Shown here: piece by piece, positions 6,892-19,337 of the stretch
Layout: every line of letters begins with the position of its first letter
Position numbering within the stretch: the stretch's first letter is position 1
Assembly (NCBI GenBank): GCA_021803655.1
Contig: JAJZLK010000050.1
Span: 1 to 32,296 of the forward strand
Reading direction: 5' to 3'
DNA length: 32,296 bases
Origin: Thermoplasmata archaeon
GTDB lineage: Archaea; Thermoplasmatota; Thermoplasmata; Thermoplasmatales; Thermoplasmataceae
The notes under the pieces: generated by a model
Database searches by the model: none
The model's input: the letters and a program-made list of their open reading frames with translations, nothing else
What the model was told of the DNA's origin: nothing
Made by a program: the position numbers and the translations under genes

Positions 6892-7158
6892 TTGGGAGAC
6901 GTAGCAGTAGTTTTCAAGATACTTCCAGAAGATGCAGAAACTGATATGAATGTGCTGGAATCATCAGTCAGAGATGTTATTTCCGGCATTTGCGAAGTAA
7001 ACAAGATGACGATTGAGGAGATAGCATTCGGACTGAAGGCAATCAGACTCGAAGCTATAATGAAGGACGAAGAAGGTCAGATAGGAAAGGTAGAAGACCT
7101 CATAAGAGAGATACCTGGAATTTCCCAGATAGATACAGAAGACGTTACCCTTGTATGA
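6892..7158 (+). CDS. ef1b: Translation elongation factor aEF1B (EF-1 beta)
   Basis: Guanine-nucleotide exchange factor for aEF1A, 88 residues, with a ferredoxin-like fold. The family hallmarks are the start MGDVAVVFKILPEDAETDM, the central EIAFGLKAIRLEA segment that contacts aEF1A, and the ending of the type QIDTEDVTLV. An in-frame GTG at 6883 would add three residues, but the TTG at 6892 is preferred: it gives the family-typical N terminus, and the ribosome site AGGTGA (6881-6886) is five bases before it, the same arrangement as the upstream zinc-finger gene. The stop codon overlaps the ATG of the glycosyltransferase (ATGA), giving a three-gene operon. Confidence 0.93.
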   Translation: MGDVAVVFKILPEDAETDMNVLESSVRDVISGICEVNKMTIEEIAFGLKAIRLEAIMKDEEGQIGKVEDLIREIPGISQIDTEDVTLV

Positions 7159-8225
7159 ACATCGGTTCAGCGACACAACTGCTCCTTGAGATTTTCGAGA
7201 TTTACCTGTTTCTTATTTTTATCTTTTTTACCATATCGGCACTTCCCAGATGGAAACCGGAAAAGTTTGAGGAACCACATTTTCCGGTCAGGGTTATAGT
7301 ACCCTGCAAAGGAACCGATCTCACTCTCAGGGAGAATCTTGAATCTATTTCGGCACAGGATTACGGGAATTTCAGGATCACGGCCGTAGTTGACAGTGAA
7401 GATGATCCCAGTTATCCTGTTATCCGCGACTCCGGGATTGAGCACCTGATCTCCAGGAAATTCAGTACAAAGGGGAGCGGAAAGGTCAAGGCTATTGTCA
7501 CAGCCCTTCAGGAAACTACGGAGGAGATCGTGGTAATTGTGGATTCTGACGTCACAGCAGGGAGAGACTGGCTGCGGAAGCTTGTTTCTCCCCTTACCGA
7601 TAATAGATATGGTCTCTCGACAACTTTCCCGGTATTCAAACCTGCAGGTGGTTTCTGGTCCAAATTCAAGTCCCTCTGGGGACTCGTCGGGCAGGGAATG
7701 ATGGAGAGTTCCATCACAAGATTTGGATGGGGAGGTTCGCTTGCCTTCAGGAGATCCATCGTAGCGGGAAGAGAGAACGAATTCCTGGAGCAGGTATCGG
7801 ACGATATCTTCCTGACAAAGGCCTGTAAACACGCGGGCTTGAGGTTATATTATGAGCCCGGCGCCAGAGCAACAGTGTTGTCAGACGATAACTTCCCGGT
7901 GTTCTTTGAGTGGGCAAACAGACAGACCGCTCTTTCAATATCATCCGGAAGGAATATTCTGTACTCCGGGATCGCGCTTTATTTCAACCAGTCTCTGCTG
8001 TATTCCATGGGTGTTGTTTTCACAGTTCTCCTGTCTCCGTATTTTGCGTTTCTTCTAGTGCCGTTTATCATCAACACAGTAAAAGCCGCGGTCAGGCTTC
8101 CATTCAAGTCTGCCATGCTGATTCCAGGAACATTCATAATGCCGTTTTTCTATTTCTTGAACCTCGTCATAGCTGGAAGAATGAAATCCATAAAGTGGAG
8201 AGGGTCCAGTTACGATCTTCAATAA
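7155..8225 (+). CDS. Membrane GT2-family glycosyltransferase (ceramide-glucosyltransferase-like)
   Basis: Transfers a sugar from a nucleotide sugar to a lipid or polyprenyl acceptor at the cytosolic face of the membrane. 356 residues: an N-terminal membrane anchor (about 8-30), a GT-A domain with the metal motif DSD at 130-132, the acceptor-site Asp pair at 216-217 and a WGGSLAFRRS segment, then two or three C-terminal membrane helices (about 265-345). The order D-D-D-(Q/R)xxRW of processive and GT21-type enzymes is nearly kept, but the last motif reads EWANRQ, so the usual RW pair is altered. The acceptor is unknown; membrane glycolipids or the dolichol-linked glycan are plausible given the glycoprotein genes nearby. 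Translational coupling to aEF1B is by a 4-base overlap. Confidence 0.85.
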   Translation: MNIGSATQLLLEIFEIYLFLIFIFFTISALPRWKPEKFEEPHFPVRVIVPCKGTDLTLRENLESISAQDYGNFRITAVVDSEDDPSYPVIRDSGIEHLISRKFSTKGSGKVKAIVTALQETTEEIVVIVDSDVTAGRDWLRKLVSPLTDNRYGLSTTFPVFKPAGGFWSKFKSLWGLVGQGMMESSITRFGWGGSLAFRRSIVAGRENEFLEQVSDDIFLTKACKHAGLRLYYEPGARATVLSDDNFPVFFEWANRQTALSISSGRNILYSGIALYFNQSLLYSMGVVFTVLLSPYFAFLLVPFIINTVKAAVRLPFKSAMLIPGTFIMPFFYFLNLVIAGRMKSIKWRGSSYDLQ

Positions 8226-12264: not shown

Positions 12265-15200
12265 ATGGAGAGCAGTGCACAAAGATTAACTGAAAGGCTG
12301 AGTAATTTCTTCAGTGCGAATCCTGAGGTAATAGTTCTTTCGCTTCTCATGCTTATTTACCTTTTTCTTGGAAACTATTTTGCCGTTTCCGCTACCCTTG
12401 GGAGCGGACTTTACGTGTCAGGCGGCAGTGACCCATATTACAATTACAGGACAATATCATACATAATCACGAATCATCACTCACTCGTATTCGACAGGGC
12501 ACTGAATTATCCGATCGGCGCCCCTAACCCAAGGACTCCATTCTTTCACTGGTTCTTAGCGTTAGCAGGTGAAATCCTTTCTCCATTTCTGGGCTTAACC
12601 TACGGGACTAAACTGGCATTCCTTGAGTTTGATGCAGTATTCGGAGCCTTGCTGATAATTCCGGTATACCTGATAACAGCAGAGGCATTTGGCAAGAAAA
12701 CGGGGATGCTGGCCGCTATTCTCTATGCCTTAATGCCAAGCAACCTATCATCAGGAGTGCTCTCAGATGGAAGAATGCACACTCCGGAACTGATATTTGC
12801 GTTTTTCACCATTTATTTCTTCGAAAAGGCAATAAACACGATAAACAAGGACAGACTGATTGGTAGCCTCAGGGATTTCCTCAAGTTTCCAGTCTCTGTC
12901 CTGAGATACGTTGAAAACAACAGACTCGGGACAATTTATGGGGCGCTTGCAGGTGCGTCAATGGGGGCGCTGATGCTATCATGGCAGGGATACGCCTATA
13001 TTGAGGCTATAATCCTGATATACGTATTCGTACAATTCATCATCAATATCCTGACAAAAAAGAATCTGGGTTATCTGACTTTCCTCACTGCACTTCTGAT
13101 CGGAATCTCATTTTCAATGTCTGCATATTACTATATAGCACTTGCTCCCGGTTTTGCACAGGTTTGGTTTTACCCGCCACTTTACCTGGGGCTGGGCGTC
13201 ATTCTCTTTGGGATGTTCGCTTCCCTATTCTCCAGGAAACCATGGATACTCAGTCTCCCCTCCTTCGTGGTTATATTCTCTATAATACTCGGTGCTGCGT
13301 ACCTGTTCCGTCCGCAGATGTTACAGACACTCATCAGCGGTGAAGGGTACTTCATAAAGACGAGGGTCTACACTACCATAGCCGAAGCCTCGGCCCCGCC
13401 ACTTGGACAGTACATTTCCGGATTTGGCCCAGCACAGTTCATTCTTGGCATGGGCGGTATAGCGTACGTAACCTACCTTTTCCTGAGACAGAGGAAGGAC
13501 GTGCTTACATTCCTTCTGGTATTCTCGATTGTTTCCATCTACATGAGTTTCGCTGCAGCAAGGTTTAATGTTACAGCAGCTCCGGCTTATGCCATACTTG
13601 GCGCAGCCCTGCTGATGTATTTTGTCAATATGCTGGGGCTCGAGAAACAGCTTTCAAAGAGAGACAGTACCAAAACTGGAATCCGCAGAATCAAGGGTAA
13701 CCAGAACTGGATCACTGCCGTGTTCTCAATCGCAGTCATCCTCTTACTAATTATCCCTTCAGGTTTCAGTACAATTGCATCTGCAGTTCCTGCAAATTCT
13801 GCAACTTCAATAAACCAGCAAATTTACAACGATCTGCCTTCGTTTTTGCAGCCCCAGAATTTTTCAGCCAGTAACCCGCAGTTCGTAGGGGCTTCCGGTT
13901 TCTATATAACCAACTCAACCACCCCTCTTTCGCGGGCCTTCAGCTGGTTATCAACGCAAGACACAAACGTTCCGCTCAATAGCAGACCGGCATTTGTATC
14001 CTGGTGGGACTACGGATTCCAGGAGATATCTCAGGGACATCATCCTACTGTCGCAGATGACTTCCAGCAGGGATATCAGGTAGCGGGACAGATACTCCTT
14101 GCCCAGAACCAGAGTCATGTGATTTCACTGTTTATTGCCAGGGTTCTGCAGGCGTCATACATTAACAACGGCAGCACCTATACTCCGGCTTTGTTCTCCG
14201 CAATGAGTCAGTATCTTGGATCTCAGGAAGCTGCCACTATAAAATCTATCACTGCGGACCCCGCAAAGTACTCTTATCTGATTGCATCAAATCCCACTGA
14301 ATATGGATCGTTTATCCCTGATATTTCAGCGCAAAACGCCTATTTTGCTCTTGTATCCGGACAGCTCTCGTATAATTATCCGGTATCAACCATAGTGAAT
14401 CTTTATAGCGCCCTTGAATCCATCACAGGGTACAATATCAAGTACATAGGCATTGACCATTCTCTCCTTCCGCTATCAGGCACGAATCCGGGGATCTTCT
14501 ACGCTCCGACATACCTGACTGACAGCCCAAGTTACACATCATCCGGGGAGATCGTCCCGTACCACTATTACCAGATCCAGGCTGTTCTTTCCAACGGAAC
14601 GACGATGAATCTTAACCAACTGCCAAGCGGTGCTGTTCCAGTCAACTACAATATTGTATACAAGCCAGCATTCTACAACACCACGATGTATCGGTTTATG
14701 TTCGGGTACTCCCCTTACGACACCGGGAACACCTCCGGGATACCCGGACTTACATTCGGACAGAATACTTACACTGTTATGCCGGCACACAATCTAAGTC
14801 ATTTCGAGTTACTCTATATGGGAATCCCCTGGAACCCGTACAAAGACTACCAGAACCACTCGAGCGCGTGGAAGATTATACCTCTCCAGCAGGCTTATCG
14901 CTATAACAAGGAAGGTATAGGAACTACGTACATCTTTCCTCCCACCAGCCAGCTTGCGGGTGGAACTGATCCAATTGTTGGTTATTATCCCGGTGCGAAG
15001 ATAACAGGAAAAGTAACAATGCCCAGCGGACAGCCAGTAAAAGGGATATATGTTACGCTGTTCGATCAGTATGGGATACCACACGACACAACAATTACAA
15101 ATTCTGCGGGATATTATAACCTGACGGCGGTTCCCGGAAACGACTCGATTCTTATTAGCTATGGGAAATATAACAAGATCTTTGACTCCGGATCAAATTC

Positions 15201-18200
15201 CATAGATTACTACCACGTGCATGTCAGCAAACTTCAGGCAGAGAGACAGACTCTCGGGGTCAACGCAACCACAGGACTTCCAAACTATTATTTTGTGCAC
15301 AATTTCCAGCTCAAATCAACAAAAGTGAGCGGGAGTCTTGCTTTCCGGTACCAGGAAGCGCCGTATGTGGCCGGAGAGAAAACAGTAAAGACCTTCAGTG
15401 TTCCAGTCAGCACCGCGACGATAACCCTGTATAACCAGACAAACGATATCTCATTCTCAACAATTATGCAGGAAGGCAACTACCAGTTCAGCAACATACC
15501 GACTTACGATTATCAGGTTAATGTTACTGTAGCTGGTCAGACGTACAACAACATTACTACAATCATTCTGACCCAGGGGGCCAATGTAATTCAGAATCTG
15601 CACATTAAGAAAGACAGCATATTTGTCAGTGCAGTGCTCGGAGGAAAAACGCTCTCCGGTGTGCAGGTAACACTCACCGGTAAGAATACAACGGTGACTA
15701 ACGTTACCAACTCAAGCGGAATAGCTTCCTTCTGGGTGAATCCAGGTTCATACGAGGCGCATCTATCAGGTCACGGAATAATATCTGTTGTACATCCATT
15801 TTCCTTTACAGGCTGGGGTAATAACCTCACTGCGAACCTTACTCCGTCTCCTTCCGCCTCCGTTACGGGGACTGTTTCTGGCACAAATGGGCCAGTATAC
15901 GTCTATTTCTATCAGAACGGCCTGGAGAACGCGTCATGGCAAACCCTTAGTTCTTCAAACGGTGCATTTAACATAACACTTCCTCTGGGTATCTATACTG
16001 CATATGCTGGAATAGGCGGACAGTCCGCGTTCCAAACGTTCGTATTGAACAGTACACGTACAATGCAGTTGTCTCTTACAAGTGGAGCTTACATTAATCT
16101 AACTTCAAACGCCCCGAGTAAGAACACCTTCACGGGATATTATGAAATTCTCAGTAATGCCGGAATAATAAAAATAAAGGATAACAACCCATACGCCACA
16201 ACCTCTGTCTTTGTTCCTATCGGGACTTATACAGTGGAATCGCAGGGAATTTCTCTGGGCAATATTTACTCAAACACAAAGATATTGAGCATAGCCTCGG
16301 ATACGACATTAAATATGTCGATGAAGATCAATTCTAACGTCAGCGTCTCCGTGTACTCCGCTAGCCCATCTGCTTCATCGCTCGTGAGTAATGGAATTGT
16401 TGAACTAAGGAGCCAGAGTTCGATACTTTCATTCCAGCCTGTACCTGCAAGTGGATACGTTGCCATGTATTACCCGTCCTCTGTCACTTCTGGTTTATCA
16501 GTTTCCTATATTTCGCCATATTTCAGTTCCGTCAGCAGCTCACCAAGTAGCGGAAGCGTTGCCCTTAAAGCAGTGCCAAAGATGTTTCATATCTCCGTGC
16601 CGATAGAAGCAGGCGGAAATCCGGCATCTTATAACGGATCTATGAGTCTGACGGGAGTTGGAAATTACACCTTCAGTTTGTCATCAGGAACGGCAACGGG
16701 AAACCTCGGGGCAGGAGAGTATTTGCTGAAGATAGCCAGTTCTGAAGCATCCATATCTCCTATTTCAGAACTCTTTTCCGTAGTTGCTGCAAATTCAACG
16801 ATTCCTCTCAATGTGACTGTCGGGGTTTCACTCCAGGTCACCGGTTCCCAGAACTCGATGTTATTCAATTCTTCAGGAGCAAGATTCTCCGGTCCGGTTC
16901 TTGTTTCTCCTGGACTATACACGGTCTATTCCACTGGCATTACGGGATCTAACATTAGCCGTGTTTATCTGGATAAGAATACCACACTTACTCCGACATT
17001 TTCCAAATCTTATAATGTGACGCTGGAAAATACCCTGGGAGTAGACAGCGGTAATTACATTCTGGGATTTGGCAGCTATACTCTTAATCTTTCCCGAGGT
17101 TCCTACGATCTTCCGGCAGGTACATATTCAGTATCCTATTCCCTGAATTATTCCAACTCTTCTGGAGATTTCAACATCCACGGGTTAAAGACAGTCACCG
17201 TTTCTTCAAGTGCAACGGTGAACCTGAGTGTAACAACTAGCAAGGTTTATGAGCACCTTGAAGGCTATGCAATGTACAACGGCGCTCCATCTGCATACAC
17301 TAAAGTTTCAATTTACACCTCTAAGGGTATTGAAGTTAATTCGACCAACACAAACTCAGCCGGGTGGTATGATCTTACGGTCTCTTCGGGAAGATATTCG
17401 GTGTACTCCGTTAACAGTGCATCTGGACTCGCATATACTGGCACTGTCACAGTAAACTCATTCTCTGGCGTTACCGTTAATAACTTGACGATGGCACCGG
17501 GAACATCCGTCTCGGTCTTGGTTACAGTGGGCGGGACACCGATTTATACCAATGTCACAGTGTTACAACAGCAGTTCAAGATAGAGTTCAACAGCTCCGC
17601 CGGAAGCATATTCCTACCTCTTGAATCGTATGCATTCTCGGCCTCCGAGTCATACAACTCCACTTATAGGAACACCACATTTACAGAATCTTACCAGACA
17701 AGCATTACGCAGCAGATTGGATATGGGACCTACATCCTGATACCTCTGAGCAGGAATTACAACTACCAGTTCGACCTTGGACAGATCAGTGGACCAGGTG
17801 GTGCAGTTGCCACTGGTACCATGACAAACTTCACCTTCTATCTGAAGAACACGGGAAGTTCATTTGCAAACGTCACTCTTTCCAGTGGAAACGGATCGTG
17901 GAACATGACTTTCAGCAAGACAAAATTCATGCTGGCTCCAGGCCAGAACGTGTCGCTTAATGTTACTGTGAACGTTTCGCAGTATGCCAGTGCAGGAACG
18001 AACAAGATCCCGGTGATCGTCAACTACGGATCCGGAAATTACACTGGCGACCTTAATCTGAAAGTTAAACAGTATTACGGCTTCACTCTATCCAGCCTGA
18101 ACACAGCAGGATCGCCTTATAAGAATAGCATTCTGATAGGATTCCAGTTGCAGAACACCGGAAATGGAAAGGAAAGAGTCAATCTCTCGGCAAACTCAAG

Positions 18201-18564
18201 CCAATATTCCGCTTTCGGCTGGACTCCTTCTTACCTGTATGACAACAAGACAGTCACCAGTGTGACTATTGAGATGAATCAGACAGTCACAGTGTACCTT
18301 GAGCTGTCTCCAATCACCTCCCAGAAACAACAATACATCACTGAAGCTACAGTTTATGCATCCCTTAACAGCGAACAGAAAAACCTAACACTTACTCCTC
18401 AGTATCCAGAGATACCGGTACTCAAGGCTTACCCTGTTGGGACCTCAATATCTAACTATACTGGTAACCCATATTCTGTTCTCCTTATAGGAATCGGGAT
18501 AAGTGCAGTAGCTATCATATCTGGAATAGCTGTGGCGGTAATACGCGGGAGGAAGAAAAAATGA
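12265..18564 (+). CDS. aglB: Oligosaccharyltransferase AglB/STT3 with a giant extracellular beta-domain tail
   Basis: Transfers the lipid-linked glycan to Asn in N-x-S/T sequons on the outer side of the cell membrane. Residues about 20-510 form the polytopic GT-C region. The first Asp motif is GSDPYYNYR (Asp56), a second acidic segment is DGRMHTPE (168-175), the external-loop TIxE motif is TIAE (371-374), and the catalytic-domain signature is WWDYG (580-584). From about residue 913 the protein has an extra stretch of roughly 1,150 residues: several carboxypeptidase-regulatory-like beta domains (one at about 913-965, another near 1662-1720), then NEW3-like domains from about 1845, and a final membrane helix with a basic stop (about 2070-2099). 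The tail is dense in sequons, so it is probably glycosylated itself. Typical archaeal AglB proteins are about 600-1,000 residues. The stop overlaps the next gene (ATGA). Confidence 0.93.
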   Translation: MESSAQRLTERLSNFFSANPEVIVLSLLMLIYLFLGNYFAVSATLGSGLYVSGGSDPYYNYRTISYIITNHHSLVFDRALNYPIGAPNPRTPFFHWFLALAGEILSPFLGLTYGTKLAFLEFDAVFGALLIIPVYLITAEAFGKKTGMLAAILYALMPSNLSSGVLSDGRMHTPELIFAFFTIYFFEKAINTINKDRLIGSLRDFLKFPVSVLRYVENNRLGTIYGALAGASMGALMLSWQGYAYIEAIILIYVFVQFIINILTKKNLGYLTFLTALLIGISFSMSAYYYIALAPGFAQVWFYPPLYLGLGVILFGMFASLFSRKPWILSLPSFVVIFSIILGAAYLFRPQMLQTLISGEGYFIKTRVYTTIAEASAPPLGQYISGFGPAQFILGMGGIAYVTYLFLRQRKDVLTFLLVFSIVSIYMSFAAARFNVTAAPAYAILGAALLMYFVNMLGLEKQLSKRDSTKTGIRRIKGNQNWITAVFSIAVILLLIIPSGFSTIASAVPANSATSINQQIYNDLPSFLQPQNFSASNPQFVGASGFYITNSTTPLSRAFSWLSTQDTNVPLNSRPAFVSWWDYGFQEISQGHHPTVADDFQQGYQVAGQILLAQNQSHVISLFIARVLQASYINNGSTYTPALFSAMSQYLGSQEAATIKSITADPAKYSYLIASNPTEYGSFIPDISAQNAYFALVSGQLSYNYPVSTIVNLYSALESITGYNIKYIGIDHSLLPLSGTNPGIFYAPTYLTDSPSYTSSGEIVPYHYYQIQAVLSNGTTMNLNQLPSGAVPVNYNIVYKPAFYNTTMYRFMFGYSPYDTGNTSGIPGLTFGQNTYTVMPAHNLSHFELLYMGIPWNPYKDYQNHSSAWKIIPLQQAYRYNKEGIGTTYIFPPTSQLAGGTDPIVGYYPGAKITGKVTMPSGQPVKGIYVTLFDQYGIPHDTTITNSAGYYNLTAVPGNDSILISYGKYNKIFDSGSNSIDYYHVHVSKLQAERQTLGVNATTGLPNYYFVHNFQLKSTKVSGSLAFRYQEAPYVAGEKTVKTFSVPVSTATITLYNQTNDISFSTIMQEGNYQFSNIPTYDYQVNVTVAGQTYNNITTIILTQGANVIQNLHIKKDSIFVSAVLGGKTLSGVQVTLTGKNTTVTNVTNSSGIASFWVNPGSYEAHLSGHGIISVVHPFSFTGWGNNLTANLTPSPSASVTGTVSGTNGPVYVYFYQNGLENASWQTLSSSNGAFNITLPLGIYTAYAGIGGQSAFQTFVLNSTRTMQLSLTSGAYINLTSNAPSKNTFTGYYEILSNAGIIKIKDNNPYATTSVFVPIGTYTVESQGISLGNIYSNTKILSIASDTTLNMSMKINSNVSVSVYSASPSASSLVSNGIVELRSQSSILSFQPVPASGYVAMYYPSSVTSGLSVSYISPYFSSVSSSPSSGSVALKAVPKMFHISVPIEAGGNPASYNGSMSLTGVGNYTFSLSSGTATGNLGAGEYLLKIASSEASISPISELFSVVAANSTIPLNVTVGVSLQVTGSQNSMLFNSSGARFSGPVLVSPGLYTVYSTGITGSNISRVYLDKNTTLTPTFSKSYNVTLENTLGVDSGNYILGFGSYTLNLSRGSYDLPAGTYSVSYSLNYSNSSGDFNIHGLKTVTVSSSATVNLSVTTSKVYEHLEGYAMYNGAPSAYTKVSIYTSKGIEVNSTNTNSAGWYDLTVSSGRYSVYSVNSASGLAYTGTVTVNSFSGVTVNNLTMAPGTSVSVLVTVGGTPIYTNVTVLQQQFKIEFNSSAGSIFLPLESYAFSASESYNSTYRNTTFTESYQTSITQQIGYGTYILIPLSRNYNYQFDLGQISGPGGAVATGTMTNFTFYLKNTGSSFANVTLSSGNGSWNMTFSKTKFMLAPGQNVSLNVTVNVSQYASAGTNKIPVIVNYGSGNYTGDLNLKVKQYYGFTLSSLNTAGSPYKNSILIGFQLQNTGNGKERVNLSANSSQYSAFGWTPSYLYDNKTVTSVTIEMNQTVTVYLELSPITSQKQQYITEATVYASLNSEQKNLTLTPQYPEIPVLKAYPVGTSISNYTGNPYSVLLIGIGISAVAIISGIAVAVIRGRKKK

Positions 18565-19337
18565 GAAACTTATTCACGGCCTTTCTGCTAATACTGTTGC
18601 TTCTTGCTGCAGTGCCTCTGGCTTCAATGCAGACAAGTGCACAGCCACCCAACATTTATGAAGTGAGTGTAAACGCACCTTCGAGTGTGTATACGGGTCA
18701 ACAGTTTTCCATCTATGTTAACTGTACGTATGGATGGGGTAATTACAGCGTTTCAGCTTACTTTGCAGGATATAACCTTACAGGTTTCCTTCCAACAAGC
18801 ACCTATCATAATTTCAGTCTCAGCGACCCATATTTCATTATCAACGTTTCTGCTCCGCTTGCCCCCCAGACTCTCTATGTCTACATCACCACATATGCTC
18901 AGGTTGGGTCAAAGACGGTCCAAGCCTCCAGTACTCAGTTGATAAATGTCTTTACCCCAATCGTTCTCAATGCCACGGTGAGCAATCCAAGCAATGTTGC
19001 CATACATAACGTGACCGTCAATTTCCTTATTGATGGGAATGGAGTTGGGCACGCCTTCATTCCTGTCATTGGTCCCGGTGCCTCTGTACCTGTGTCTATC
19101 AAGGCAGTGTACCCTCAATTGTCGCAGGGGGAGCATACTCTTTCCATCGATGTCAGCAATGCGCAGGTCCTGGTAAACGGCAAGATTCAGTATTCTACAC
19201 AATTCTACTACGGAACGCCGCCAAACTACAGCTGGATATACTATGTGTCGGCAGGCTCGATCATATTTGCCGTTCTTCTGGCCCTTGGTGCCGGTAGGAG
19301 GAAGAATCGTCTCAGTTCCCCCAAATGGAAAAAATAA
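18561..19337 (+). CDS. Membrane-anchored, sequon-rich surface protein
   Basis: A 258-residue exported protein co-transcribed with the oligosaccharyltransferase (4-base ATGA overlap). It has an N-terminal signal peptide or anchor (hydrophobic 5-22, with ASMQTSAQ as a possible cleavage region), a beta-sandwich ectodomain of CARDB/NEW3 type (about 30-220) with several N-x-S/T sites (NCT, NYS, NLT, NFS, NVS, NAT, NVT), and a C-terminal membrane helix (about 228-248) followed by a basic tail. Topology therefore puts the bulk outside. The ectodomain resembles the last domains of the neighbouring oligosaccharyltransferase tail, so it may be a partner subunit, a substrate, or a split-off copy. No enzymatic motif is seen. 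The gene is convergent with the RNase H-fold gene, with only 2 bases between them. Confidence 0.82.
   Translation: MRNLFTAFLLILLLLAAVPLASMQTSAQPPNIYEVSVNAPSSVYTGQQFSIYVNCTYGWGNYSVSAYFAGYNLTGFLPTSTYHNFSLSDPYFIINVSAPLAPQTLYVYITTYAQVGSKTVQASSTQLINVFTPIVLNATVSNPSNVAIHNVTVNFLIDGNGVGHAFIPVIGPGASVPVSIKAVYPQLSQGEHTLSIDVSNAQVLVNGKIQYSTQFYYGTPPNYSWIYYVSAGSIIFAVLLALGAGRRKNRLSSPKWKK

Follow-up and report, generated by a model that had tools for sequence, protein, structure and literature searches.

A giant AglB-type oligosaccharyltransferase of Thermoplasmata carries a conserved beta-domain tail and adjoins a conserved membrane-protein gene

We found that an archaeon of the family Thermoplasmataceae encodes an AglB/STT3-type oligosaccharyltransferase (OST) with an outward-facing tail of about 1,190 residues, which re-enters the membrane at a C-terminal anchor, and that a gene for a small two-Ig membrane protein, here termed the partner, lies directly behind it. 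The DNA analyzed, hereafter the window, is a 32,296-nucleotide stretch of a contig (JAJZLK010000050.1, assembly GCA_021803655.1). Our preferred reading, to which we give a probability of roughly 0.45, is that the catalytic unit extends into the first tail domain, the remaining tail is a membrane-anchored scaffold at the site of protein export, and the partner is a second OST subunit. Archaeal OSTs have been described as single-subunit enzymes (PMC8342417, PMC2952790), and no published description of the tail or the partner was found in the open-access literature. We regard as new the partner gene behind AglB, a D-x-YGIPH motif, a joint loss of motifs in one family (f16), and a mid-tail deletion in Acidiplasma.

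The gene is a single ATG-to-stop frame of 2,099 codons with zero internal stops and is the sole STT3 gene found in the genome. Its membrane region matches the Pfam STT3 family with 48.5 bits (cut-off 24.5). In comparisons with the PDB, the closest solved relative is the Archaeoglobus fulgidus AglB, aligned over residues 52–636, and the AglB profile matches structure 3waj with an E-value of 2e-32. Together with the GGSD, TIAE, and WWDYG motifs, these matches bear out the original prediction of an OST whose chain continues into a long tail rich in sequons. The beta domains anticipated from about residue 913 were also recovered by domain search, with a CarboxypepD_reg match starting at that residue (E = 3e-16) and an Ig/NEW3-like match at residues 1846–1924, and the expected second membrane anchor appears both as a hydrophobic segment and as a helix at about residues 2069–2098 of the AlphaFold2 model. 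A family 2 glycosyltransferase gene lies about 4 kb upstream (window positions 7155–8225).

Table 1. Features of the AglB locus (positions are those of the window).
Feature	Residues	Positions	Strand	Basis
AglB/STT3-type OST with giant ectodomain, 2,099 aa		12265..18564	+	ORF, Pfam, PDB comparison
N-terminal transmembrane region	1–505	12265..13779	+	Pfam STT3 (50–451), hydrophobic segments
GGSD, first acidic (GXD) motif	53–56	12421..12432	+	alignment
Second DXD position, SDGRMHTPE	167–175	12763..12789	+	alignments
TIAE (TIXE) motif	371–374	13375..13386	+	alignment
Catalytic ectodomain	506–905	13780..14979	+	class alignment
WWDYG motif	580–584	14002..14016	+	alignment
Tail: about a dozen beta-sandwich (CarboxypepD_reg/prealbumin-like) domains, then Ig/NEW3-like	906–2066	14980..18462	+	domain matches, sequons, model
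DQYGIPH in first tail domain	934–940	15064..15084	+	class alignment
Mid-tail missing in genus g2 (Acidiplasma), limits approximate	~1290–1930	16132..18054	+	sequence comparison
C-terminal Ig/NEW3-like tail part, limits approximate	~1841–2060	17785..18444	+	domain matches, model
C-terminal membrane anchor, then RGRKKK	2067–2096	18463..18552	+	hydropathy, model
Partner gene, 258 aa: signal peptide, two Ig-like domains (~35–220), TM 224–244, basic tail		18561..19337	+	sequence, model

The window protein shares with archaeal AglB-L enzymes (A. fulgidus, 3waj and 5gmy; Pyrococcus AglB-L) the membrane core and the GXD, TIXE, and WWDYG motifs; the Asp of GGSD (D56) is present in 53 of 56 aligned sequences. 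A conserved D731...I744-x3-P748 is a candidate for the DK or MI motif, the placement of which depends on structure. The second DXD-type motif, on which the original prediction is silent, lacks its metal-binding acid, since R-M-H at residues 170–172 replaces D-H-H of A. fulgidus and R170 aligns with the catalytic Asp. This R-M-H is common to the sequences of the window organism's family, whereas many other families of the class keep DHD; the motif also deviates in families f11, f9, and f5. The protein is an OST homolog by descent and is therefore likely, though not certain, to be active. Its AglB counterpart in Picrophilus torridus (PTO0786) is listed in an LC-MS secretome (PMC8345856). AglB-L ectodomains carry the extra peripheral beta units IS, P1, and P2 (PMC3703281), and the A. 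fulgidus chain in the PDB has 875 amino acids, compared to 2,099 in the window protein, which adds about a dozen beta domains, the second anchor, the conserved downstream partner, and R-x-H at the second DXD.

A homolog was present in 71 of 77 genomes of the window organism's family, nearly all with a frame of 2,050–2,130 amino acids; this excludes an assembly error or a separate gene, either of which, according to the original prediction, would have spoken against it. In the class, frames of about 1,850–2,430 amino acids are general, and we extracted full frames for 60 AglB loci that cover most of its families. Named relatives in the class include Ferroplasma acidarmanus Fer1, Acidiplasma aeolicum, E-plasma, I-plasma, Aciduliprofundum, and Methanomassiliicoccus. 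Tails of intact class AglBs measure 1,147–1,296 amino acids, except for the Acidiplasma deletion and a form of about 1,024–1,048 amino acids in f16. Each short frame among relatives could be accounted for: in E-plasma (G030) a frameshift splits the gene, of which both halves are there, in G006 and G041 the contig stops within the frame, and in Acidiplasma part of the tail is deleted. The original prediction was to fall if all Thermoplasmata AglBs had the same known tail; this is essentially the case, as the tail is class-wide, although we found no paper that describes it. One genome (L085, G018:C32) carries a second, divergent AglB of 1,589 amino acids without a C-terminal anchor, which ends 272 bases from the contig end.

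Giant AglBs of 2,300–3,200 amino acids also occur in the rest of the phylum beyond the class, with 2,357–2,478 amino acids in lineages f33, f44, and f53, about 2,320–2,363 in f32, and up to about 3,207 in f40 and f46, which are probably Poseidoniia. These outside lineages look marine and non-acidophilic. To our knowledge, Methanomassiliicoccales and the rest of the phylum are not acidophiles. Because giant AglBs are found throughout the class and in its sister lineages, this distribution marks the tail as ancient within the phylum, rather than as something that a single wall-less acidophile evolved for itself. Three AglBs of about 3,170–3,207 amino acids (L147–L149) have an N-terminal extension of about 340–370 amino acids ahead of the STT3 match and have no downstream partner gene.

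The AlphaFold2 model of the tail, the structure prediction for which the original prediction had called, is an all-beta chain (mean pLDDT 88, pTM 0.55). In 34 tails scanned for domains, CarboxypepD_reg was found in every one, NOMO_5th in 14, FixG_C in nine, and NEW3 in three; a Foldseek search with the tail model returned just generic bead chains with TM-scores near 0.1. The tail is collinear across 32 class sequences, with an occupancy of at least 0.88 per 50-residue bin and mostly at least 0.93. Conservation within it is uneven: the majority fraction in the class alignment is 0.61 at residues 901–950, 0.49 at 951–1000, and mostly 0.29–0.42 over the remaining tail. The first tail domain is thus conserved like the catalytic part and carries the class-wide motif D-x-YGIPH, of which D934 and H940 are invariant, while conservation drops steeply beyond it and the sequence changes quickly, as is common in passive surface domains. 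In Acidiplasma a true internal deletion has removed the mid-tail, leaving in place the first domains, the C-terminal end with its anchor, and the partner gene.

Sequons are as abundant in the window tail as had been claimed: residues 906–2060 contain 48, compared to 23.5 ± 4.0 in composition shuffles, i.e., twice the expectation, whereas the transmembrane half shows no excess (2 vs. 2.3 expected). Tail density is 5.25 per 100 amino acids in the window organism's family and falls to 0.7–1.2 in several other families; a glycan coat therefore does not characterize the tail in general.

The start codon of the partner gene overlaps the AglB stop by four bases (ATGA), and the two genes are probably translationally coupled. 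Its structure was modeled with a pLDDT of 91.7. The partner sits directly downstream of AglB in all 55 testable class loci, i.e., those with the AglB 3' end and flank on the contig; in the five others, no more than about 270 bases separate the end of AglB from that of the contig. The same held for 64 of 64 loci of a second, named set, which has genomes in common with the first, and in G030 the partner sits behind the second half of the frame-shifted AglB. When neighbors were tested with single sequences, the partner was recovered in 52 loci, compared to eight for the upstream gene (all one family) and 24 for the next downstream gene (three families). A partner search gave a strong match in nearly every class genome; matches outside the class were weaker, mostly of the CARDB type, and best in f33, where, as in sister lineages, a weaker homolog lies behind AglB. 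The giant AglBs of the Poseidoniia-like lineages have no partner, which shows that a tail can do without one. The conserved adjacency is suggestive of a complex, but is not proof of one. Matches in seven genomes (G089, G090, G114, G116, G119, G132, and G136) contain one in-stretch stop codon, mostly TAG, which may reflect an upstream start artefact or readthrough.

Family f16 is probably Methanomethylophilaceae, a group of gut methanogens. Outside its genus g59, WWDYG and TIAE are missing from AglB in every sampled f16 genome, the first acidic residue is also gone in most, and D-x-YGIPH occurs in none of 16 aligned genomes; genus g59 has a canonical AglB with all motifs, including DEYGIPH. The motif-dead loci (L108, L110, L232–L234, L239–L254) give a single match in 15 of 16 genomes, the match in G166 being in two pieces. 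Their AglBs are mostly intact frames of about 1,830–2,000 amino acids that retain the tail, and the partner adjoins AglB in all five cases with gene ends checked. Pairwise dN/dS was below 1 in four of five comparisons, at 0.13–0.24 for the transmembrane region, 0.34–0.66 for the tail, and 0.39–0.53 for the partner; the most divergent pair gave 1.2 for the tail, where dS is unreliable. From these patterns we infer a link between the first tail domain and catalysis, and a role for the remaining tail and the partner that can persist once catalysis is lost. The joint loss may be a single event, in which case the effective number is small.

In our preferred reading, the catalytic ectodomain of the single cellular AglB-type OST would continue into about a dozen beta-sandwich domains and back to the membrane via the anchor. 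The catalytic unit most likely includes the first, D-x-YGIPH-bearing domain, and the remaining tail, with a membrane attachment at either end, most likely serves as a scaffold next to the site of protein export, where it would present emerging chains to the active site; the earlier proposal that the tail holds acceptor proteins near the active site is thus possible and forms part of this reading. The two-Ig protein would interact physically with AglB, most likely as a second subunit. All tail and partner pieces are predicted to be extracytoplasmic or membrane-anchored, consistent with a scaffold near the translocon. Eukaryotic accessory OST and TRAP subunits (OST1, OST3/6, TRAP alpha/beta) are likewise small membrane-anchored proteins that act with STT3 or the translocon (PMC11417166, PMC11186639), and TACK and Asgard archaea are reported to have OST1 and OST3/6 (PMC11417166). 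The partner resembles such subunits in size and anchoring, but no relative of OST1, OST48, OST3/6, or TRAP was among the families and PDB chains listed as its sequence matches; these are generic CARDB/Ig domains, and Foldseek with its model returned just tandem Ig folds with low TM-scores.

If true, a class-wide coupled partner and a phylum-wide tail would revise the single-subunit view for a large archaeal group and add another, independent case in which beta-domain accessory parts surround an OST. Through its motif-dead relatives, the parts needed for glycan transfer could be told apart directly from those with another role. A bolder formulation, which we consider tentative and somewhat doubtful, is that Thermoplasmata have a two-subunit OST with a built-in NOMO-like scaffold, and that one family keeps the catalytically dead assembly for protein export or membrane biogenesis.

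The motif-dead f16 proteins, with their mostly intact frames, adjoining partners, and dN/dS mostly below 1, also argue for tail and partner having a separate membrane job, as a NOMO-like translocon or membrane-spacing factor for which the AglB core is a mere platform. The best PDB match of the tail profile by sequence was NOMO2 (E = 8e-28), and NOMO, a BOS complex subunit that lies beside the export machinery in the ER translocon (PMC11186639), shares with the window protein a long chain of prealbumin-like domains and a membrane anchor, but is a separate protein without an OST fusion. Orthology to NOMO was ruled out: the matches overlap, are not collinear, and align the same tail domains to several NOMO domains, so that the likeness is one of domain type and layout. 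Given also that the motif-dead proteins may have been repurposed secondarily and that tail dN/dS reached 1.2 in the most divergent pair, albeit with unreliable dS, we consider a separate job unlikely.

The proposal of a coat function, with the tail as an S-layer-like glycoprotein at the surface or as one component of the coat, was not supported. The doubled sequon count and the presence of PTO0786 in the secretome would fit it, but the tail has a fixed length and collinear order across the class, belongs to a single-copy enzyme gene, is sequon-poor in several families, and, in the window protein, matches no S-layer family in Pfam or NCBIfam; in Cuniculiplasma, moreover, AglB is present but microscopy shows no S-layer (PMC5155288). 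We judge a coat role improbable. With the tail phylum-wide and the partner following AglB across the class, a built-in scaffold with a second subunit is more likely than a cell-coat protein. That tail and partner are drifting historical baggage is very improbable: the mid-tail does diverge fast and is deleted in Acidiplasma, but tail length and anchor are constant in the class, the partner stays adjacent, and dN/dS is below 1 in most pairs. Shielding of the enzyme from acid or proteases, also raised by the original prediction, would suit the acidophilic, mostly wall-less Thermoplasmatales (PMC5155288) and the heavy sequon load of the window organism's family, but giant tails in Methanomassiliicoccales and in apparently non-acidophilic lineages across the phylum leave it scarcely credible.

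The NCBIfam model of archaeosortase A-associated OSTs, TIGR04154, is homologous over residues 23–656, with 202.4 bits, below its cut-off of 450. The window AglB has no PGF-CTERM end, unlike the AglBs of sister lineages (L140–L143), in which the tail ends with a PGF-CTERM-like signal (e.g., PGFEALGLVSSLAAAALLLGRRRR); these ends suggest processing of an OST by an archaeosortase.
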